Assembly (NCBI RefSeq): GCF_002287235.1
Contig: NZ_LMVP01000046.1
Span: 1-49,306 of the forward strand
Direction: 5' to 3'
DNA length: 49,306 nt
Source: Methanosarcina spelaei
GTDB lineage: Archaea; Halobacteriota; Methanosarcinia; Methanosarcinales; Methanosarcinaceae
Positions within the stretch are counted from its first letter, which is position 1. Every line of letters begins with the position of its first letter. Below are positions 2,027 to 11,540 of this stretch, piece after piece. The position numbers and the translations under genes are program-made. The notes under the pieces were generated by a model, which was given only the letters and a program-made list of their open reading frames with translations, did not search any database and had not been told where the DNA came from.

Positions 2027-2117
2027 TAGGAAGCTTTTTATTGACTTTCATATATAAAATATTTTATTGTATATATAAAACGTAAATTAAAAGCAATCTA
2101 TGAATTGGGGTTTAGAC

Positions 2118-3344
2118 ATGAAGGTATTGGTAATAAACGCAGGAAGCTCATCCCTGAAATATCAATTAATTGATATGACCAATGAGTCCCCTCTTGCAGT
2201 CGGTCTCTGCGAAAGGGTTGGAATCGATAACTCGATCATTACTCAGAAGAGGTTTGATGGCAAGAAGCTGGAAAAGCAGATTGACTTGCCAACCCACAAA
2301 GTAGCTCTTGAAGAAGTTGTCAAGGCTCTTACGGACCCGGAATTTGGTGTCATCGAAGATATGGGTGAAATCAACGCGGTCGGGCACAGGGTTGTACACG
2401 GTGGAGAGAAGTTCACAACATCTGCTTTGTTTGATGAGGGTGTAGAAACGGCTATCAAAGATTGTTTTGAACTGGCACCCCTTCACAATCCTCCAAACAT
2501 GATGGGAATCTCAGCCTGTGCAGAAATTATGCCTGGAACGCCTATGGTTATTGTTTTCGACACTGCATTCCATCAAACCATGCCTGCATATGCATACATG
2601 TATGCTTTGCCATATGATCTGTATGAAAAGCACGCAATACGAAAATACGGTTTCCACGGGACTTCTCACAAGTACGTTGCCGGAAGAGCTGCCCTTATGC
2701 TCGGAAAGCCTATAGAAGATACCAAAGTTATCACCTGTCACCTTGGAAATGGTTCAAGTATTGCAGCAGTGGAAGGCGGAAAATCTGTTGATACAAGCAT
2801 GGGCTTTACTCCTCTTGAAGGGGTTGCAATGGGTACCAGATGCGGTTCCATTGACCCGGCAGTCGTTCCCTTCGTTATGGATAAAGAAGGCCTCTCAAGC
2901 AGAGAAGTTGACACTCTCATGAACAAGAAGTCCGGTGTACTTGGAGTTTCCGGGATCAGCAATGACTTCAGGGACCTTGATGAGGCAGCATCTCACGGTA
3001 ACGAGAGGGCCGAGCTTGCCCTTGAAGTTTTTGCATATAAGGTTAAGAAGGTTATTGGTGAGTATTTGGCTGCTCTCAATGGTGCAGATGCGGTGGTCTT
3101 TACTGCTGGTATCGGAGAAAACAGCGCAAGCATTAGAAAGAGAATCCTTGCCGGCCTTGATGGTCTTGGTATAAAAATCGATGAGGAAAAGAACAAGATC
3201 AGAGGCCAGGAAATCGATATCAGTACCCCTGATTCAAAGGTAAGGGTCTTTGTCATCCCAACCAATGAAGAACTTGCCATTGCAAGGGAAACAAAGGAAA
3301 TTGTTGAGACCGAAACTAAACTGCGTAGTTCGGTACCTGTTTGA
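2118..3344 (+). CDS. ackA: Acetate kinase
   Basis: Phosphorylates acetate with ATP to acetyl phosphate, feeding Pta; the first committed step of growth on acetate in Methanosarcina. At 408 aa it has the exact family length. Motifs: [15 protein letters not shown] at the N-terminus (Asn7 region), [10 protein letters not shown] (Arg91 region), [10 protein letters not shown] (Asp148 region), [13 protein letters not shown] (His180 region), GTRCGSIDP (Arg241 region), [13 protein letters not shown], and [11 protein letters not shown] with the catalytic Glu near residue 384. I choose the ATG at 2118 (MKVLVIN), preceded by GGGG at 2107–2110, over the ATG at 2100, which would add six residues not found in the family. 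A good terminator follows directly. Confidence 0.97.
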
Positions 3345-3462: not shown

Positions 3463-3595
3463 TTTCTGCTGTTTTTGTTCTTCCGTTTCTACTGCTTTTG
3501 TCCTTCTGTTTCCACTGTTTTTGTTCTTCTGCTTCCACTGATTTTGTTCTTCTGCTTCCACTGATTTTGTTCTTCTTTCACTGTTTTTTCTTCTA
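3463..3595 (+). repeat. 23-bp tandem array, about five units
   Basis: Units begin at 3463, 3486, 3509, 3532 and 3555 and read like TTTCCACTG followed by TTTTTGTTCTTCTG, with single-base differences and a shorter sixth unit. The array fills most of the 350-bp gap between ack and the ATP-grasp gene; nothing else is visible there besides the terminator and an AT-rich promoter-like stretch at about 3652–3668. Confidence 0.85.
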
Positions 3596-3698
3596 CCACT
3601 TTTTCTGATTTTTGAAAAATAATTTTTTACCTTCGAGAGTTGTAGTTTTTATTGTCATAATATTAATACCCAAAGAATAACTGTCCTTGAGCTGTCAT

Positions 3699-4454
3699 AT
3701 GATTATGAAACAGGTGGATCTTTTCCCTCAAACACCCAAACCAGATCGGATATTGGTAGCCAGGATTTTTGAGACTGCCAGAGAAAAGAACCGGTACATA
3801 CTGGGCCTTGAAGCTTTTGACATTCTGAAAGCTTACGGCATTCCTGTAGTAAATACTATATTTGCAAAAACTGTAGAAGAAACTGTAATTGCCGCAGAAG
3901 AGATAGGTTATCCGCTTGTAATGAAGGTTGTTTCTCCGCAGATTTCTCATAAATCCGATATTGGAGGAATCAAACTTTCCCTTAGAAATGCTGCTGAAGT
4001 AAAAGCTGCCTATCAGGACATAATGGATAACATCTCAAAGAAATTACTGGACGCATCCCTTAAAGGTATACAGCTTCAGCCAATGCTCTCAGGCGGCAAA
4101 GAAGTAACTCTAGGAATGGTTCACGACCCCACTTTTGGGCCAATGATGATGTTCGGTCTTGGTGGAATATATATAGAAATTCTTAAAGATATCCGGTTTG
4201 CGATAGCCCCTTTTGACGAAAGAGAAGCCAGAGATATGATCACAGGGATTAAAACCTATCCACTCCTTGCCGGAATCAGAGGGGAAAAGCCTTCTGACAT
4301 TGATGCGCTTGTAGACATAATTCTCAGAGTTTCAAGCCTGGTTTGCGATTTTCCGGAGATTGAAGAGTTTGAGATAAACCCTATGATGGTTTTTGAAAAA
4401 GGAAAAGGCGCACTTTCTGTGGACTTGAGGTTAATACTCAAGAATGACCTGTGA
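3699..4454 (+). CDS. ATP-grasp (beta) subunit of ADP-forming acyl-CoA synthetase
   Basis: Stand-alone ATP-grasp_5 domain, the beta-type half of ADP-forming acetyl/acyl-CoA synthetase, which in the complete enzyme moves phosphate between acyl phosphate and ADP. The segment [18 protein letters not shown] contains the His of the HKSD-GG motif, the conserved phosphohistidine-relay residue of the beta subunit. [21 protein letters not shown] and FEINPMMVF are ATP-grasp core motifs. At about 251 aa it is the length of a free beta subunit, and no CoA-binding alpha half lies next to it. The start is uncertain: ATG 3699 or 3705, or TTG 3687; none has a clear Shine-Dalgarno, and a TATA-like stretch about 40 bp upstream makes a nearly leaderless mRNA possible. 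Its place after pta–ack suggests a link to acyl-CoA metabolism, which is inference. Confidence 0.85.
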
Positions 4455-4749
4455 CTTTTCTAGGTCAACCGTTGACCCGAAACTGTTGACCCGAAACCGT
4501 TGCGCCGGTTTATCACGCCTATAGGGTTAGGGGATAAGTTTTTCAAACCCAAACGTTACTGGAGTTTTCGCTCAAGCCTTTTTTTAAAAGGGTTGCAGGT
4601 AGATTTTCTGTTTTTCCCAAATCCTTCTCAAAAATCTTTTCGCTATCGAATGGCTGTGGTTGCAGAATTCTGAGACGTTTCGGGCCTGGTCATAGTAAAA
4701 TTATAACATTTGTTTCGTACATACTGGGAGTAGTAAATGAGGTGGTAAG
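4455..4749 (+). other. Intergenic region with short direct repeat and promoter-like site
   Basis: No gene seen. GTTGACCCGAAAC occurs twice at a 14-bp period (4471–4498). A TATA-like AAAATTATAACA at about 4697–4708 would suit the operon that follows. Confidence 0.4.
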
Positions 4750-4773
4750 ACGGCCCAGGAACGGAAAAGACTC

Positions 4774-5382
4774 ATGCTGGCTGTGGGTATCCTGCTTATT
4801 TCGAGCACTATAGCTATTAATCTCCTCCTTGAGGATTCACCAGTGGTAATCCAGCTTGAAGGGGATACGTTCAAGGTTGTGGATATCCCGTATGTGTATA
4901 CCGTAAAAGAAGCGTATATTCTTCTTTTTTCCGGATTTTTTGGAGGTCTGGCGCTAGCTCAGGTTCTACTGTACCTGGGGGTTCAGGGTTCTGAGCTTTC
5001 AGTAACCGGACAGGCAGCACAGATAGCGGCTCTCAACGTTATCGCAGAGAAATCTCCTGAGAAAGTTTTTGAGTTAGAGCTTGAAAATTCTGCTGTTGAG
5101 GAAACTTTGCCCAGGGCTAACATCGACCCTACAGATGTCCTTCTTCGAGCTCTTGAAGGGGATGAGAGGAAAGCCATTGAACTGATTGCAGCAAAAGGAG
5201 GAAGAATTCTCCAGAATGAACTCGTAAATTCTCTTGACTTTTCCAAAGCCAAAGTTTCTCGAGTTCTCATGAACCTGGAAAAGAGAGGCATAATAACAAA
5301 GAAAAAATATGGGCTTACAAACTGCATTTCGATAGCTGATGAGCTTAAAGATAACGTGGGGCTGAGGGGTGAAATGAAATGA
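4774..5382 (+). CDS. Membrane-anchored winged-helix regulator
   Basis: Two hydrophobic segments (residues about 2–19 and 46–69) enclose an exposed loop of about 27 residues. They are followed by a cytoplasmic linker and a C-terminal winged helix (about 130–195): KAIELIAAKGGRILQNELV, then the recognition-helix region DFSKAKVSRVLMNLEKRGII and wing KKKYGLTN, as in MarR/DUF7343-like regulators of archaea. It probably senses an envelope signal and controls transcription; target unknown. The first standard start is ATG 4774 with no ribosome site close by. A strong GAGGTG (4739–4744) sits 5 nt before an in-frame ACG (4750), which would give xAQERKRLMLAVG, a typical basic N-terminus for a membrane protein, so the real or ancestral start may be there. 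The stop overlaps the next start by 4 nt. Confidence 0.75.
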   Translation: MLAVGILLISSTIAINLLLEDSPVVIQLEGDTFKVVDIPYVYTVKEAYILLFSGFFGGLALAQVLLYLGVQGSELSVTGQAAQIAALNVIAEKSPEKVFELELENSAVEETLPRANIDPTDVLLRALEGDERKAIELIAAKGGRILQNELVNSLDFSKAKVSRVLMNLEKRGIITKKKYGLTNCISIADELKDNVGLRGEMK

Positions 5383-6227
5383 AGAAAAGTGCTCTTATTT
5401 CGGTTTCAGTTGTTTTATTGGCTCTGGTTCTGGGAGGGTCATGGTACTATGGAGATGGGGCCGATGTAAAAATTACTGATATGTATGCTTCTCCTTTTGG
5501 GGCAGGTGACCTTGGAAAACTGAACATAACGCTTCAAAATAACGGTTTAAAGCCAGTGGATGTGTGGCTTGAGATTGAGAACGCTTTTGTGGATGAAAAT
5601 GGGGTGAGTTACTCAACACCAAGGCTGATAATCTCCAATAATTCAACAAATCCATGGGATGAAGGATCAGCTTCTCTTCAGAAGCCGATAAAGCTTGTTC
5701 CAGGAAATAATTCGGTCAAAGTATGGCTTGGGTATAAGCTTCCAGGGGAGTACCCTGTGAAGGTTAGGGTCGTTCAGAATAGCAGGCTTCTGGATGAAGA
5801 AACGTATCCTGTAAATATCCCGTTTCCAGAAATTCACCTTAAGCTGGAATACGAAATGGAAAGCAAAAACAATTCTGATGTTTACAGGATCTATGGCTAT
5901 ATTATTAACAAAGGGCTTAGCAATGCGAGGAACGTGTCAACAAACCTTACAGTAACAAACGAGAGAACCGGAGAACTGGTGCTTACATCTTCCGAATTTT
6001 ATGATGCAGGAGAAAAAGATAAAAGTCCTCTGTGGACCTGGCCCGACTATCCCTATGCAATTGTGGAAATTGCACATAGCAAACCTTCGGGAAAATCTTA
6101 CATGCCTGTCAAGAACGTGGTGATAGGGAGCAGCGAGGACCGCTTCAAGGTTAATGTAACGGCCAAATGGCAGAATCAGGTGGCTTTTGCCGAACTATTA
6201 ATCCCTCCAAAGGAGGAGACCAGGTGA
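5379..6227 (+). CDS. Exported or membrane-anchored protein, unknown family
   Basis: I do not recognise a named family. The N-terminus MKKSALISVSVVLLALVLGG is a signal peptide or signal anchor. The rest (282 aa total) looks like two beta-sandwich, CARDB-like modules: LGKLNITLQNNGLKPVDVWLEI at about 47–68 and IYGYIINKGLSNARNVSTNLTV at about 171–192. It holds several N-glycosylation sequons (NIT, NNS, NNSD, NVS, NLT). It is the middle gene of a three-gene operon: its ATG overlaps the preceding stop (ATGA) and its own TGA overlaps the next ATG. The start is supported by GAGGGGTG upstream. It likely acts outside the membrane with the lipoprotein that follows; inference from context. Confidence 0.75.
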   Translation: MKKSALISVSVVLLALVLGGSWYYGDGADVKITDMYASPFGAGDLGKLNITLQNNGLKPVDVWLEIENAFVDENGVSYSTPRLIISNNSTNPWDEGSASLQKPIKLVPGNNSVKVWLGYKLPGEYPVKVRVVQNSRLLDEETYPVNIPFPEIHLKLEYEMESKNNSDVYRIYGYIINKGLSNARNVSTNLTVTNERTGELVLTSSEFYDAGEKDKSPLWTWPDYPYAIVEIAHSKPSGKSYMPVKNVVIGSSEDRFKVNVTAKWQNQVAFAELLIPPKEETR

Positions 6228-7708
6228 TGCATATGAAAAAGCGAAGTCAATTTTGCAGCAGCAGATATGCAAAACTCTTGCTTCTCTTAGTTTTGCTTTC
6301 CAGTATATGTGCTGGGTGTCTTGGCCAGGATCCTCTTAAAACCAGAGCAGAGAAATTAGTTGGAAGTCTAGGGGATAAAGATAAGGAGGTTGCTTCAGCT
6401 TCGACTAATGCACTTATTGATATTGGGGAACCTGCAGTTTCATCACTTATTGAAGCTTTAAAAGATGAAAATCCGCAGGTACGCAGTTATGCTGCTCTTG
6501 CCCTTGGAGAAATAAGAGATAAAAAAGCTGTGGAACCTCTGATGGAAATCCTCGATGATCCCTCTCCTGAGGTTCGTAGGAATGCAGCTTATTCACTTGG
6601 AGAAATTGGAGACATAAAGGCTGTTGAACCCCTTATTGAACTATTAAAGGACGAAGACGTGGAAGTAGTTCGCTTTACAGTAATTGCGCTTGGGTTATTG
6701 AAGGACCCCAGGGCAACTGAGCCGATTTGTGAAGTTATGGATCGTGATGATGCTAGAACACAGCATGAAGGTAATCCCGATATACGCCATCAAGCTATAT
6801 ATGCCCTTGAAGAAATCGGAGATCCGGCTTGTACAGATACTCTTCTGGATCTGTTGGGTGATAAAGAACTCGGATGTTCGGCTGCCAATACGCTTGGCAG
6901 CTTTAAAAGTGAAGATGTATTTGAAAAAGTAGCTAAAAAGCTGCGGAACAGTAACCCCACAGTTCGGACTAATGCCATAACTGTGTTTGAATCTAACCGT
7001 GACCCTGCTGCTGTTCCTCTCTTGATTAAAATGCTGAATGATGAGGTTCCAGAGGTTCGAAAAGAAGCCATTCGTAGTCTGAGTTCTTTTGAAGAGCCTG
7101 AACAGGTTGCCATGAGCGAACAGCTCATGATTAATGCTCTTGGGGATAGTAAATCCGAGGTACAGGAAGAAGCTGCTCGCTCTCTTGGAAGGTTAGGAAG
7201 CAGGGAGGCAATACCTTCTCTTGAAGGGCTCCTCCAGTCAAAGAACAAAAATCTCCAGAGTGCTGCTATTACGGCTTTGGGAGATATTGGAGACCCTGAG
7301 GCTGTAGACGTTCTTATTGCCACTCTTGCAGACAAAGATTGGTTAGTACGAGAAAATATTGTGAATTCTCTGGTTGAGATAGGAGACTCTCGAGCGATTG
7401 AACCTTTGATTTCCTTACTTGAAGATGAAAGCTATAGAGTGAGGAAAAGTGCTGCAGAAGGCCTTGGGAAATTTGGAGATCGGAAAGCTGTTGAACCTCT
7501 CCTCAAGGCTCTTGAGACCGAAAGAGAACAAGAAGTCAGAGTTTCTGAGGTTAGAGCTCTTGGGATACTGGGAGGACAACAAGCAATGGAAGGCTTGAAC
7601 CGGATAAGCACGGACCCAGATGAGTACGGGTTTGTAAGGACTGCTGCAGAGGAGTCACTGGAAAAACTCAAGAGAGGAGAGACAGGAAATACCTCTTCTC
7701 CTTCTTAA
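6227..7708 (+). CDS. HEAT-repeat lipoprotein
   Basis: 493-residue solenoid built from about a dozen HEAT/PBS-lyase-type repeats of roughly 30 residues, for example EPAVSSLIEALKDENPQVR, then AALALGEIRDKKAVEPLMEI and AVEPLIELLKDEDVEVVRF. Such repeats form protein-binding scaffolds. The N-terminus has basic residues, a Leu-rich core (LLLLLVLLSS) and ICAGC, a plausible lipobox (Cys at +1, though -3 is Cys rather than Leu), so it is probably anchored outside the cell. Start: ATG 6227 lies 8 nt after GGAGGAG (6212–6218) and overlaps the previous stop (TGATG); ATG 6233 is too far. It ends the regulator–exported protein–lipoprotein operon and is followed by a terminator. Confidence 0.85.
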   Translation: MHMKKRSQFCSSRYAKLLLLLVLLSSICAGCLGQDPLKTRAEKLVGSLGDKDKEVASASTNALIDIGEPAVSSLIEALKDENPQVRSYAALALGEIRDKKAVEPLMEILDDPSPEVRRNAAYSLGEIGDIKAVEPLIELLKDEDVEVVRFTVIALGLLKDPRATEPICEVMDRDDARTQHEGNPDIRHQAIYALEEIGDPACTDTLLDLLGDKELGCSAANTLGSFKSEDVFEKVAKKLRNSNPTVRTNAITVFESNRDPAAVPLLIKMLNDEVPEVRKEAIRSLSSFEEPEQVAMSEQLMINALGDSKSEVQEEAARSLGRLGSREAIPSLEGLLQSKNKNLQSAAITALGDIGDPEAVDVLIATLADKDWLVRENIVNSLVEIGDSRAIEPLISLLEDESYRVRKSAAEGLGKFGDRKAVEPLLKALETEREQEVRVSEVRALGILGGQQAMEGLNRISTDPDEYGFVRTAAEESLEKLKRGETGNTSSPS

Positions 7709-7709
7709 A

Positions 7710-7745
7710 CAGTCCATCTGGACTGCAAGACTGAAGTTTTTATTA
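7710..7745 (+). terminator. Terminator of the HEAT-lipoprotein operon
   Basis: CAGTCC (7710–7715), loop ATCT, GGACTG (7720–7725), then TTTTTATT from 7737. It starts 2 nt after the stop codon. Confidence 0.65.
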
Positions 7746-7862: not shown

Positions 7863-7970
7863 ATGTGAAGTGAAAAGTAAAGTGAAAAGTAAAGTGAAAA
7901 GTAAAGTGAAAAGTGAAGTGAAAAGTGAAGTGAAAAGTGAAGTGAAAGTGAAGTGAAATGTGAAGTGTTT
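7863..7970 (+). repeat. 12-bp tandem array before the S-layer-like gene
   Basis: About eight or nine units of AAGTGAAAAGT plus A or G in the last position (12 bp), purine-only on this strand. The unit changes from A- to G-ended along the array. The array ends about 40 bp before the start codon at 8008, in what should be promoter or leader DNA. The reverse-strand reading frames through it are artefacts of the repeat. Confidence 0.9.
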
Positions 7971-8007: not shown

Positions 8008-9417
8008 ATGAAGAACCATACAGCAATTTTACTGGCTGCTCTTGTTGTCTTAACTGTGTTTGCAGCAGGCACTGCAAGCGCAACAGACACCGCTAGCAGT
8101 AATAACAGTACTTACAATGTTGTTTATGCGGATTATAAGTGCGAGAGCTGGTCTGACGAACAATACCCTGTAATCGATCTGTTTGGAGACAAATATGTTC
8201 CGCTGTTCAATGATAGCGAAAATATACGGGACTTACATGTTAACAAGCTTGCCAGACTCGTTCTTGACAGCAATGAAACTTATACCTTCAAAAACAATGA
8301 AAAATTAAATCTCGGAAATGGTTATGCTCTTGAAGCCAAGAAAATCGATATTGACAATGAAACTGTCTGGCTAGAATTCACTAAAGATGGAAAATTTGTA
8401 GCGAGTCAAAATATCTCAGTTAATACCGGGGAAAATAACAAGACATGGAATGTCACTCTTGACAATGTTGAGGGTGAAAACAATATTGTTGTCATGAAAG
8501 TGTATGTCAACCAATTGTTTGCAGGTGTAGAAAACAATATTGTTCGGATCGACGGAGTTTGGCTTATTGACTATGCAAATGCCAGAACACTCAATATTGG
8601 GGACAAATTGGGAGATTTTACACTTAAGGAAATCACGAGCGGAGTAGATAAATCTAATCTGAGAGGTCTTGTTTTCAAAAATGACATGAATAATTCTTCT
8701 GTAACCTGTAATATTGTCGGTACAAATTATAAATGCTCTAGCTGGTCTAATGAACAGTACCCATTAATTAGGTTATTTGAAGAGAACTATGTTCCATTGT
8801 TTGCAAATAATAGCTCAATCTGGCAGTCCAATATTGACAAGCTTGCTAAGCTCGTTCTTGATAGTAACGAAACTTATACCCTCGAACCCAAAGAAAACCT
8901 GGATCTTGGCCATGGATACGCTCTTGAAGCTAAAAAGATTGATATTGTCAATGAAACTGTTTTGCTCGAACTCACCAGGAACGGGCAACATGTTGCGGAA
9001 AAAAATATCTCAATAAGTTCCGAAGACAACAAGACATGGAATATTGCCCTTGACAATGTTCAGGGTGAGAACGATACTGTTGTTATGAAAGTTCACGTCA
9101 AACAGTTATTCGTGGGTACAGAAAAAAGTATTGTTTGGATCGATGGAATCTGGCTTATTGACTATGCAAATGCCAGAACACTCAATATTGGGGACAAACT
9201 AGAGGGATTCACGCTTGAGAAAATCATTGGTGGAGTGGATGAAGCTGATCCGGGTAGTCTGACTTTCGAAAGTGTTCCGGCTTCTAATTGTTCCGCACCC
9301 TCTGATTCCGAAAAGGTATCAGCAAAGTTCACTAATAAAAGTATGGAATCATCCATCTTATGGTGCAAGGAATTTTGGGGATATATCTCAATGAAAAGCA
9401 AACAAACTTTTTGCTGA
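8008..9417 (+). CDS. S-layer-like (DUF1608) exported protein lacking a C-terminal anchor
   Basis: 469 residues with a clear signal peptide (cleavage likely after GTASA, about residue 25) and two tandem S-layer units, about 38–225 and 240–430. Each runs from a W/S-x-E-QYP segment and PLF to WLIDYANARTLNIGDKL, the same core as the canonical S-layer protein at 37.8 kb. Each unit lacks the leading RG..TWTPDNFAGFFYD part and the trailing ADS-LRF part, so they are shortened DUF1608 domains. Each repeat carries one Cys (KCESW, KCSSW). NET, NNT and NIS sequons are common. The protein ends in a polar tail with no hydrophobic anchor. It is probably secreted or bound to the lattice. The start is set by AGGAGG at 7991–7996. 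Confidence 0.85.
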   Translation: MKNHTAILLAALVVLTVFAAGTASATDTASSNNSTYNVVYADYKCESWSDEQYPVIDLFGDKYVPLFNDSENIRDLHVNKLARLVLDSNETYTFKNNEKLNLGNGYALEAKKIDIDNETVWLEFTKDGKFVASQNISVNTGENNKTWNVTLDNVEGENNIVVMKVYVNQLFAGVENNIVRIDGVWLIDYANARTLNIGDKLGDFTLKEITSGVDKSNLRGLVFKNDMNNSSVTCNIVGTNYKCSSWSNEQYPLIRLFEENYVPLFANNSSIWQSNIDKLAKLVLDSNETYTLEPKENLDLGHGYALEAKKIDIVNETVLLELTRNGQHVAEKNISISSEDNKTWNIALDNVQGENDTVVMKVHVKQLFVGTEKSIVWIDGIWLIDYANARTLNIGDKLEGFTLEKIIGGVDEADPGSLTFESVPASNCSAPSDSEKVSAKFTNKSMESSILWCKEFWGYISMKSKQTFC

Positions 9418-9788
9418 AAATAATAAAAAGATCACGTCAAAGGGAACGGGGTATCTCAAGCTCAGACAACATAATAAGAATGAATGTCCTGTCTCACAAA
9501 GTTTTGCACTATTTGTTGACTCGATGTTAACGTGATATTGACTATTTGTTGACCTGAGCATCTTACTTTGTGAAATTGAAATCGAAAAAAAGCAATAAAG
9601 CTGAGTCTGCTTAGAGGAATCTTTCGACATGGATCGAGTATGAATGGAAGTGATTGAAACATTTGAAGGTTTGATCTTTAATTTTCAAAAGAAATTGAAC
9701 GAAATGAAAAGAAATGGATAATCAGATAATATCAGGCAATTTTCGTCATAAAGTAATTTACAAATAAATAAGCTTGGATGGGGTTCTA
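9418..9788 (+). other. Intergenic region with short repeats
   Basis: No gene seen. ACTATTTGTTGAC occurs twice (9508–9520, 9541–9553), and CACAAAGT/ACTTTGTG form an 8-bp inverted repeat about 70 nt apart. No clear terminator for the upstream gene. Confidence 0.4.
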
Positions 9789-11540
9789 ATGTTAAAAAGT
9801 ATATTGATTATGATGTTATTATTACTTTCTGCCAGTGTAACATTCGGCTCAGTATCAGAAGATCAAAATTCTAGTGTTACACAGCTTAGCGATACACACA
9901 ATACGCAGCTTAACAATACACAGTTTAACAATACGCAGTTTAACAACACACAGTTTAACAACACACAGTTTAACAACACACAGCTTAACAATACACAGCT
10001 TAACAATAATACACAGTTTAAAGTTATACAGTTTGAAGATATTCTTCCGAAAGAAAAAGGATTCTCAGTAAGTTATACAGCATGGAGCCCTGATGGACGA
10101 TACTTACTGGTTACCTCTTCCAAATCGATTTCCTTTTCAAATAATATTCACAGGCAATATCTATTAGATACGAAATCCCATACATTCGGAGAAATCGATT
10201 ATGGAGTAAAAGAATTAAACAGTTATTCTATACCCGGAGCAGAGTGGTCTCCATCCGGAGATAAGATGTATTTCCAAATCTCAAGATTTGCTGGCCCAAA
10301 AAACTCTGGAAATTGTTTCATAATTTGCAATCCCAATGGTACTGATTTGAAGAGTGTAGGGACCAACTATAATGACATTTCAGACATATTAGAAAACATT
10401 GGGAATATTGGTTTTCAGAGAAATCTTGAGTGGAGCCCTGATTCCAGTAAAATCACATTTGAATGGGATAATCCCGAAAACCACTCAACTAAAGTCTACA
10501 TTGCAAGCAAAAACGGGACAAATGCCAGCGAAATTTCTTCAGATACATATCCACAGCCCGATTGGTATGATTCTGACAAAATCTTCATTACTACAGATGA
10601 AGGAACTGTAAATCTTATCAACGAGAGTGGAGACTTGATTCGGACTTTCCAGCCCGAGAATAAAAATAAAAAGTATTGCAAGTTTTCGCTCAGTCCTGAC
10701 AGAAAAAAAATAATCCTGGTTTCGGGTTTACCAGGGAGCTTCAATTTGCAAACCTATATATCTAATACTGACGGTTCGGAATTGAAAGGAAACATTTCTT
10801 ATTACGATGGTAGTGAACAACGTATCTTGACAAAAGAATACTGGCAGCCAAATGGTTCACTTCTTCTGGTGAATCAGAAAGATAATCTCTATATCGTGGA
10901 AGGAAAAGAGAACAATAAGCGCCTTTTGTATGAAGGCAATGCTAGTGAACCTAAATGGTTCCCTGATGGAAAGAAAATATTATTCGTTGAAGATAAAAAT
11001 AAGCTGTATTCAATCGATACCGATGGAACCAATTTGACCTTTATAACCAGCTTCGGACTTACATCTTCTTATTTCTGGAATTTATTCTGTGACCCTCTTG
11101 AAAAGGTTAAACAATTTTCAATAAGTCCGTCTGGAGATATGATAGTGTTCACATCTGCCCTTTATCCTGATACCGGAAAGATCATTGAAAATGAACCAGG
11201 CCCTTCAAAATGTCAAAATGTAGCTGCTCCTTTATTCGTTGTTAATTCTAACGGTTCTAATCTCACTCAGATAACGCCTACAATAAAAGGTAGACATGAT
11301 ATCTTTAGAGAGTGGAGCCCCAATGGAGAACAGCTCATTATAGGGTCTATTCAGTTTTCTTCAGATATTGACTGGGAGTATAAAGAAAACTCTCTTGTAG
11401 AATTCAACACGACGAATATCTCTTCTAACTCCTCTTCTAACTCCTCTTCTATCTGGAAAAATATATATGTGAAGGAAATTGTGGGGAGCGAAGAGTCCAG
11501 TACTGTTGATAAAGTCCAAGAGACAAATCCAGCTCCATAA
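9789..11540 (+). CDS. Exported TolB/WD40-like beta-propeller protein with NNT repeats
   Basis: 583 residues: signal peptide (ILIMMLLLLSASVTFGSVS), a low-complexity stretch of Q(F/L)NNT pentads at about 37–75, then a TolB-like beta-propeller. Blades are recognised by repeated W-SPDG/W-SPSG/W-SPDS motifs (AWSPDGRYLL, EWSPSGDKMYF, EWSPDSSKITF, WFPDGKKILF, SISPSGDMIVF, EWSPNGEQLII). Propellers of this type bind other proteins or glycans; the specific role is unknown. A Ser/Asn-rich segment occurs near the C-terminus and no anchor is seen. I choose ATG 9789 over TTG 9774 because GGATGGGG lies 5–6 nt before it. Every pentad holds an N-x-T sequon, so this region could be heavily glycosylated. Confidence 0.85.
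   Translation: MLKSILIMMLLLLSASVTFGSVSEDQNSSVTQLSDTHNTQLNNTQFNNTQFNNTQFNNTQFNNTQLNNTQLNNNTQFKVIQFEDILPKEKGFSVSYTAWSPDGRYLLVTSSKSISFSNNIHRQYLLDTKSHTFGEIDYGVKELNSYSIPGAEWSPSGDKMYFQISRFAGPKNSGNCFIICNPNGTDLKSVGTNYNDISDILENIGNIGFQRNLEWSPDSSKITFEWDNPENHSTKVYIASKNGTNASEISSDTYPQPDWYDSDKIFITTDEGTVNLINESGDLIRTFQPENKNKKYCKFSLSPDRKKIILVSGLPGSFNLQTYISNTDGSELKGNISYYDGSEQRILTKEYWQPNGSLLLVNQKDNLYIVEGKENNKRLLYEGNASEPKWFPDGKKILFVEDKNKLYSIDTDGTNLTFITSFGLTSSYFWNLFCDPLEKVKQFSISPSGDMIVFTSALYPDTGKIIENEPGPSKCQNVAAPLFVVNSNGSNLTQITPTIKGRHDIFREWSPNGEQLIIGSIQFSSDIDWEYKENSLVEFNTTNISSNSSSNSSSIWKNIYVKEIVGSEESSTVDKVQETNPAP
9899..10020 (+). repeat. 15-bp in-frame coding repeat (QFNNT/QLNNT)
   Basis: Seven or eight 15-bp units of the CAGTTTAACAACACA type with T/C wobble, inside the propeller gene near its N-terminus; one unit has an extra Asn codon. 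The period is a multiple of three, so copy-number changes keep the frame. Confidence 0.9.

Follow-up and report, generated by a model that had tools for sequence, protein, structure and literature searches.

The stretch of Methanosarcina spelaei DNA analyzed here (the window; 49,306 nt, contig NZ_LMVP01000046.1) comes from a 5.09 Mb genome assembly in 559 contigs. Beyond pta (992-1996), ackA (2100-3344), and an ATP-grasp acyl-CoA ligase gene, it carries three co-directional, overlapping genes, referred to below as A, B, and C (Table 1). A first-pass annotation had described them as an operon for a membrane regulator, an exported protein, and a HEAT lipoprotein, and the ORFs, their overlaps, and the domain calls all hold. 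A and B overlap by the sequence ATGA (5379-5382). At the B/C junction, the TGATG noted earlier is present in the window (6225-6229), but relatives show a 4-nt GTGA or ATGA overlap instead. Ka/Ks values of 0.16-0.31 across the three genes indicate purifying selection. The terminator proposed to end the operon is plausible: a hairpin with a U-run is present after gene C, although its fold signal is modest (z -2.1).

On the 3′ side, an S-layer (DUF1608) gene (8008-9417) follows the operon, as it does in some other species; this neighbor is not constant across relatives. Directly 5′ of the S-layer gene, a tandem repeat of GTGAAAAGTAAA/GTGAAAAGTGAA units occupies positions 7868-7962, and positions 9774-11540 encode an exported PD40 beta-propeller protein whose N-terminal part carries a series of NNTQFNNTQ/LNNTQ repeats. 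The counterparts of the operon genes in M. acetivorans presumably carry the tags MA3599-MA3601; a literature search on these tags returned no relevant paper, and they are not used as evidence here.

Table 1. Genes and Sequence Features of the A-B-C Locus (Window Coordinates)
Feature	Position	Strand	Basis or comment
Operon: genes A, B, C, co-directional, overlapping	4750-7708	+	All three ORFs present
Palindromic candidate operator GTGGTTGCAGAATTCTGAGACGTT, consensus GTGGTYTYAGAATTCTGAGACGTY	4656..4679	.	Upstream of TATA box; conserved
TATA-like box and CATTTGTTTCGTACATA element	4697..4723	+	Fixed distance downstream of operator; essentially single-copy per genome
Shine-Dalgarno GAGGTGGT of gene A	4739..4746	+	Sequence; kept in relatives
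Gene A, membrane-anchored winged-helix regulator	4750..5382	+	210 aa from putative ACG start at 4750; DUF7343
Extracytoplasmic loop of A, residues 28-56, EDSPVVIQLEGDTFKVVDIPYVYTVKEAY	4831..4917	+	Predicted beta-hairpin 32-45
Gene B, exported protein, N-terminal membrane anchor and two beta-sandwich domains	5379..6227	+	AlphaFold model
Gene C, HEAT-repeat lipoprotein	6224..7708	+	HEAT_2, E=1.2e-107; lipobox
Terminator-like hairpin and U-run	7710..7745	+	Folds at -11.1 kcal/mol, z -2.1; then UUUUUAUU

Gene A Encodes a Two-Helix Winged-Helix Protein with a Conserved Loop

Protein A opens with a short, positively charged N terminus. Two transmembrane (TM) helices follow, separated by a loop of 29 residues, and a variable linker then leads to the winged helix (wHTH) at the C terminus; the model of A shows the same order, with a hairpin between the two TM helices and a disordered linker. 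The winged helix matches Pfam DUF7343 (PF24034; E=3e-19, 69.1 bits versus a gathering cutoff of 27.6). A thus combines a predicted DNA-binding domain with two TM helices, by both sequence and model, as do transmembrane transcription regulators (TTRs), which are common in archaea (PMC10269533).

The first ATG of gene A, at 4774, would give a 202 aa product and is the start that annotators would be expected to choose. Translation nevertheless likely begins at ACG 4750, because homologues have an ATG at exactly the same place and the spacing from the Shine-Dalgarno sequence is optimal. Among 24 homologues from Methanosarcina and close genera, the codon at this position is ACG in 21, ATG in two, and AAG in one, and the conserved charged residues QERKR are translated only with the ACG start. 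Position 4739, at which the range given in the first-pass annotation begins, is not a start and belongs to the Shine-Dalgarno sequence itself; the frame opens at 4741. A conserved non-AUG start would be expected to hold the level of the regulator low.

The loop of A probably faces outside, since with two TM helices both ends have to be inside, in keeping with the positive-inside rule and the DNA-binding domain. AlphaFold places the hairpin at residues 32-45 with low-to-moderate confidence (about 60). Across 25 orthologues, from Methanosarcina to ANME-2, mean conservation of the loop (0.83) is close to that of the wHTH (0.85), with values of 0.66-0.71 for the TM helices and 0.37 for the linker; the earlier proposal that the small loop is important gains support from this. 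The consensus of the loop is PVVIQ.EGD.FKV.(D/E)IPY.YT, and the recognition region of the wHTH, QNELVN.L.FSKAKVSR.L.NLE..GI, is among the best-conserved parts of the protein. A defense role for A was considered and rejected, PADLOC giving only weak HTH matches to Csa3/CARF proteins. In one genome (G062), a stop codon disrupts A, through either decay or an assembly error.

Genes B and C Encode an Exported Beta-Sandwich Protein and a HEAT-Repeat Lipoprotein

In the AlphaFold model of B (pLDDT 85.7), one membrane helix (residues 3-24) is followed by two beta-sandwich domains of the Ig/CARDB-like kind, in agreement with its first description as an exported beta-sandwich protein. In the ranked list of structural matches, Ig-like domains from GH2 enzymes and CARDB come out best; no family in Pfam or NCBIfam scored above cutoff. 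A frameshift splits B in one genome (G076), which may again reflect decay or an assembly error.

Gene C has three in-frame start candidates, GTG 6224, ATG 6227, and ATG 6233. GTG 6224 is the more likely start, since most relatives keep the 4-nt overlap with B. The product combines HEAT repeats with a lipobox cysteine, as expected of a HEAT-repeat lipoprotein. Its lipobox, ICAGC (Cys 29 counted from ATG 6233), is conserved in Methanosarcina, reads GC in g4/g7, and is not clear in Methanolobus-type genomes. C is the quickest-changing of the three proteins, ranging from about 440 to 1754 residues among relatives; in Methanolobus-type genomes, the operon HEAT protein has grown to 1128-1754 residues. 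PADLOC matches to C were generic HEAT matches, and a defense role was rejected for this protein as well.

A and B Form an Obligate Pair to Which C Is an Optional Addition

We examined the linkage of the three genes in 112 Methanosarcinaceae genomes, reading A-B adjacency from coordinates. B was found in 42 of them, with A directly upstream every time (42/42) and the HEAT gene C directly downstream in 38. In the three ANME-3-type genomes among the remaining four, ThiL and a large S-layer protein take the place of C after A-B; the fourth is G019. In a phylum-wide sample of 393 genomes, B occurred in 35, and an A orthologue accompanied it in each; all 35 belong to the order Methanosarcinales, the ANME-2 families f2 and f3 among them. 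The ANME-2 units contain A-B and no HEAT gene. B without A was not found in either sample. In one case only does an A orthologue stand without B: a metagenome-assembled genome (G094) in which B and C have been deleted retains A as a remnant, frameshifted and truncated.

A-B adjacency is thus beyond chance. A co-occurrence check on the three genes, as had been suggested, shows them linked and not scattered, but the three-gene set does not stand as a unit: the HEAT gene is missing in ANME-2, ANME-3, and G019, which rules out a conserved core of three. Because ANME-2 and ANME-3 relatives keep A-B alone, we conclude that A and B are an obligate pair and the core of the unit, and that C is an optional accessory.

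A Candidate Operator Is Nearly Private to the Operon

Alignment of the regions upstream of gene A revealed two conserved blocks at fixed spacing: a palindrome, for which some species have the perfect form GTCTCAGAATTCTGAGAC, and a TATA-like AAATTATAA followed by CATTTGTTTC, which lies about 20 nt beyond it. Both blocks are kept in Methanolobus-type, ANME-3, and ANME-2 f2 genomes, though B is only about 33-42% identical there. Upstream of the ANME-2 f3 version of A, which shares 37-43% identity with that of the window, no operator motif was found.

Of ten operon-bearing genomes, nine contain a single match to a strict operator pattern, and none of the three operon-less genomes searched contains any. 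The tenth genome (G081) has an extra copy, without the TATA element, in a duplication scar of the pta-ackA segment; this partial scar (about 3475-5022 of its locus) contains a second ackA copy, a 3′ fragment of pta, and the orphan operator copy. Relaxing the pattern yielded only isolated extra sites, scattered and about as frequent as control matches, and we therefore claim no wider regulon. Conserved, nearly unique within each genome, and absent from the operon-less genomes, the candidate operator makes a strong circumstantial case that the operon may be privately autoregulated.

A-like Proteins with Other Exported Partners Occur across Halobacteriota

Proteins of the same architecture as A, with a recognizably homologous loop, are present in haloarchaea and in other families of the phylum Halobacteriota. 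Distant A-like proteins that have partners unrelated to B share the loop motif P..V.I..G....EIP..YT with A. Outside A-B, 39 of 47 A-like loci adjoin (within 250 bp) a singly N-anchored exported protein, where 32% would be expected from the other genes in the same loci (binomial p 6e-13, uncorrected for kinship, the genomes being related and so not independent); ORFs in this comparison came from a simple caller and anchors from hydropathy.

The partner families differ by lineage, with B in Methanosarcinales and others elsewhere. One group of partners, sharing an alpha/beta motif, occurs in family f9, haloarchaea, and others, with hhalign as the one source for their mutual relation (E 1e-5 to 2e-8, f9 group versus most). 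By the same method, neither B nor the partner of a paralogue of A described below is detectably related to the other A-like partners. Pfam gave no named family for any of ten A-like partner proteins tested; a "PepSY" identity for the wider partners, suggested by eye, was dropped for want of a Pfam match.

The paralogous cassette lies on another contig of the window genome (C87; 1504-2833 of that locus), where a two-TM, short-loop wHTH protein is preceded, with an 8-nt overlap, by an unrelated anchored exported protein of 219 aa; similar pairs are present in other Methanosarcinaceae genomes. In haloarchaea and other Halobacteriota, short-loop DUF7343 regulators adjoin anchored exported proteins with the alpha/beta motif, and the haloarchaeal ones often have two exported neighbors, one divergent and one downstream.

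A possible reading, which we put forward tentatively, is that A-B belongs, as one of several branches, to an ancient class of co-component sensors in archaea, in which a two-helix wHTH regulator with a short, conserved hairpin loop is paired with a separately encoded, anchored exported partner that can be swapped between lineages. The partners would then be Ig-like in Methanosarcinales, of an unrelated second family in the Methanosarcinaceae paralogue, and of the alpha/beta-motif family in haloarchaea and other Halobacteriota.

A-B Resembles Bacterial Co-component Systems in Gene Layout but Not in Topology

In bacterial co-component systems (ToxR/ToxS, VtrA/VtrC, TcpP/TcpH), a membrane-tethered HTH regulator makes up a single sensor together with an anchored exported protein encoded next to it (PMC9214523), the two pairing outside the membrane as an obligate heterodimer. 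A-B has the same gene layout, a tethered HTH regulator adjoining the gene of an N-anchored exported partner, in 42/42 genomes. As in those systems, the partner is singly anchored, the genes are adjacent and, as often there, overlapping, and the partner has no similarity to known domains and is kept only with its regulator. In contrast, the bacterial regulators have an N-terminal OmpR-type wHTH, one TM segment, a folded periplasmic domain, and a lipocalin-like partner, whereas A-B-C has a C-terminal DUF7343/MarR-like wHTH, two TM segments, a 29-residue loop, a partner modeled as a double beta-sandwich, and an added HEAT lipoprotein. A lacks the N-terminal OmpR/CadC-type wHTH, single TM, and alpha-beta periplasmic domain of the VtrA/VtrC-ToxR/ToxS superfamily. 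Since the type and position of the wHTH, the number of TM segments, and the outer domain all differ, A-B would best be read as a functional analogue of co-component systems, with inverted topology, and not as a ToxR/VtrA homologue. The co-component paper (PMC9214523) makes no mention of archaea, and we found such sensors described only in bacteria.

Membrane-bound one-component wHTH regulators are known in archaea from ArnR and ArnR1 of Sulfolobus acidocaldarius (PMC6396743). These resemble A in having two TM segments, an archaeal wHTH, and inverted repeats upstream of TATA/BRE in the target promoter; they differ in their N-terminal HTH and HAMP/sensing domain and in controlling the archaellum and pili, not a partner of their own. 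In Table 1 of a TTR survey (PMC10269533), the associated protein for ArnR is given as "Na," and we found no mention of archaeal partner proteins in that survey. Nor did we find DUF7343 mentioned in the open-licence papers searched. Other DUF7343-type proteins of the window genome have a fused N-terminal exported domain in place of a short loop and a separate partner.

The initial remark that no described system has this set of genes stands in part: our search of open-licence papers found no archaeal membrane-bound regulator with a dedicated exported partner, but bacterial co-component systems are close functional analogues and ArnR is a known archaeal membrane wHTH regulator. Signaling across the single membrane of archaea is poorly known, few membrane-bound regulators having been studied. 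Genetic tools exist for this genus, and the operon, with its defined regulator, partner, loop, and candidate operator, makes archaeal transmembrane gene control directly testable.

Proposed Mechanism and Alternative Explanations

We mildly favor reading the locus as an archaeal "co-component" signaling operon that regulates itself. A would be a regulator tethered by two TM helices, with its short invariant loop outside and its winged helix inside; B would be its dedicated partner, holding two beta-sandwich domains outside on a single N-terminal helix; and C, present beside the pair in most of the Methanosarcinaceae that have A-B, may extend the sensor or serve as a scaffold on the outside. By analogy with the bacterial systems, the outside state of B (with C) would be read through contact of B with the loop, altering the transmembrane pair or dimer of A. 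What is sensed may be the state of the cell surface, as the first-pass annotation proposed. The wHTH would then bind the palindrome that directly precedes the TATA box and, as activator or repressor, set the levels of A, B, and C. That the same gene logic serves as a sensor in bacteria (PMC9214523) may speak for such a function here, and A has decayed where B and C were lost (G094).

Alternatively, A could be a plain one-component sensor whose loop responds directly to the membrane or to a ligand, with B and C as output, structural envelope proteins whose amounts A controls. The operator being private to the operon, B and C are at least likely output, and because the loop motif is conserved also in distant A-like proteins with partners unrelated to B, the loop may respond to something other than B. 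Yet B is never kept without A, A decays once B is lost, and a singly anchored exported neighbor recurs in most other lineages, which is more than mere output needs; we consider this explanation unlikely, if a serious contender to the co-component reading.

It is a good deal less probable that another, unlinked regulator binds the operator, with A serving as a membrane DNA tether or controlling distant genes via a different motif. The failure to find the motif in ANME-2 f3, where A-B persist, would fit such an arrangement, but a strict operator that is essentially single-copy and absent from the three operon-less genomes is what a dedicated local regulator would give. Least probable of all, and hard to credit, is an envelope assembly unit related to the S-layer, in which a degenerate DNA-binding domain is kept solely as a protein interaction module. 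The S-layer gene that follows the operon in some species would suit this idea; however, that neighbor varies among relatives, and the wHTH recognition region is among the most conserved parts of A.
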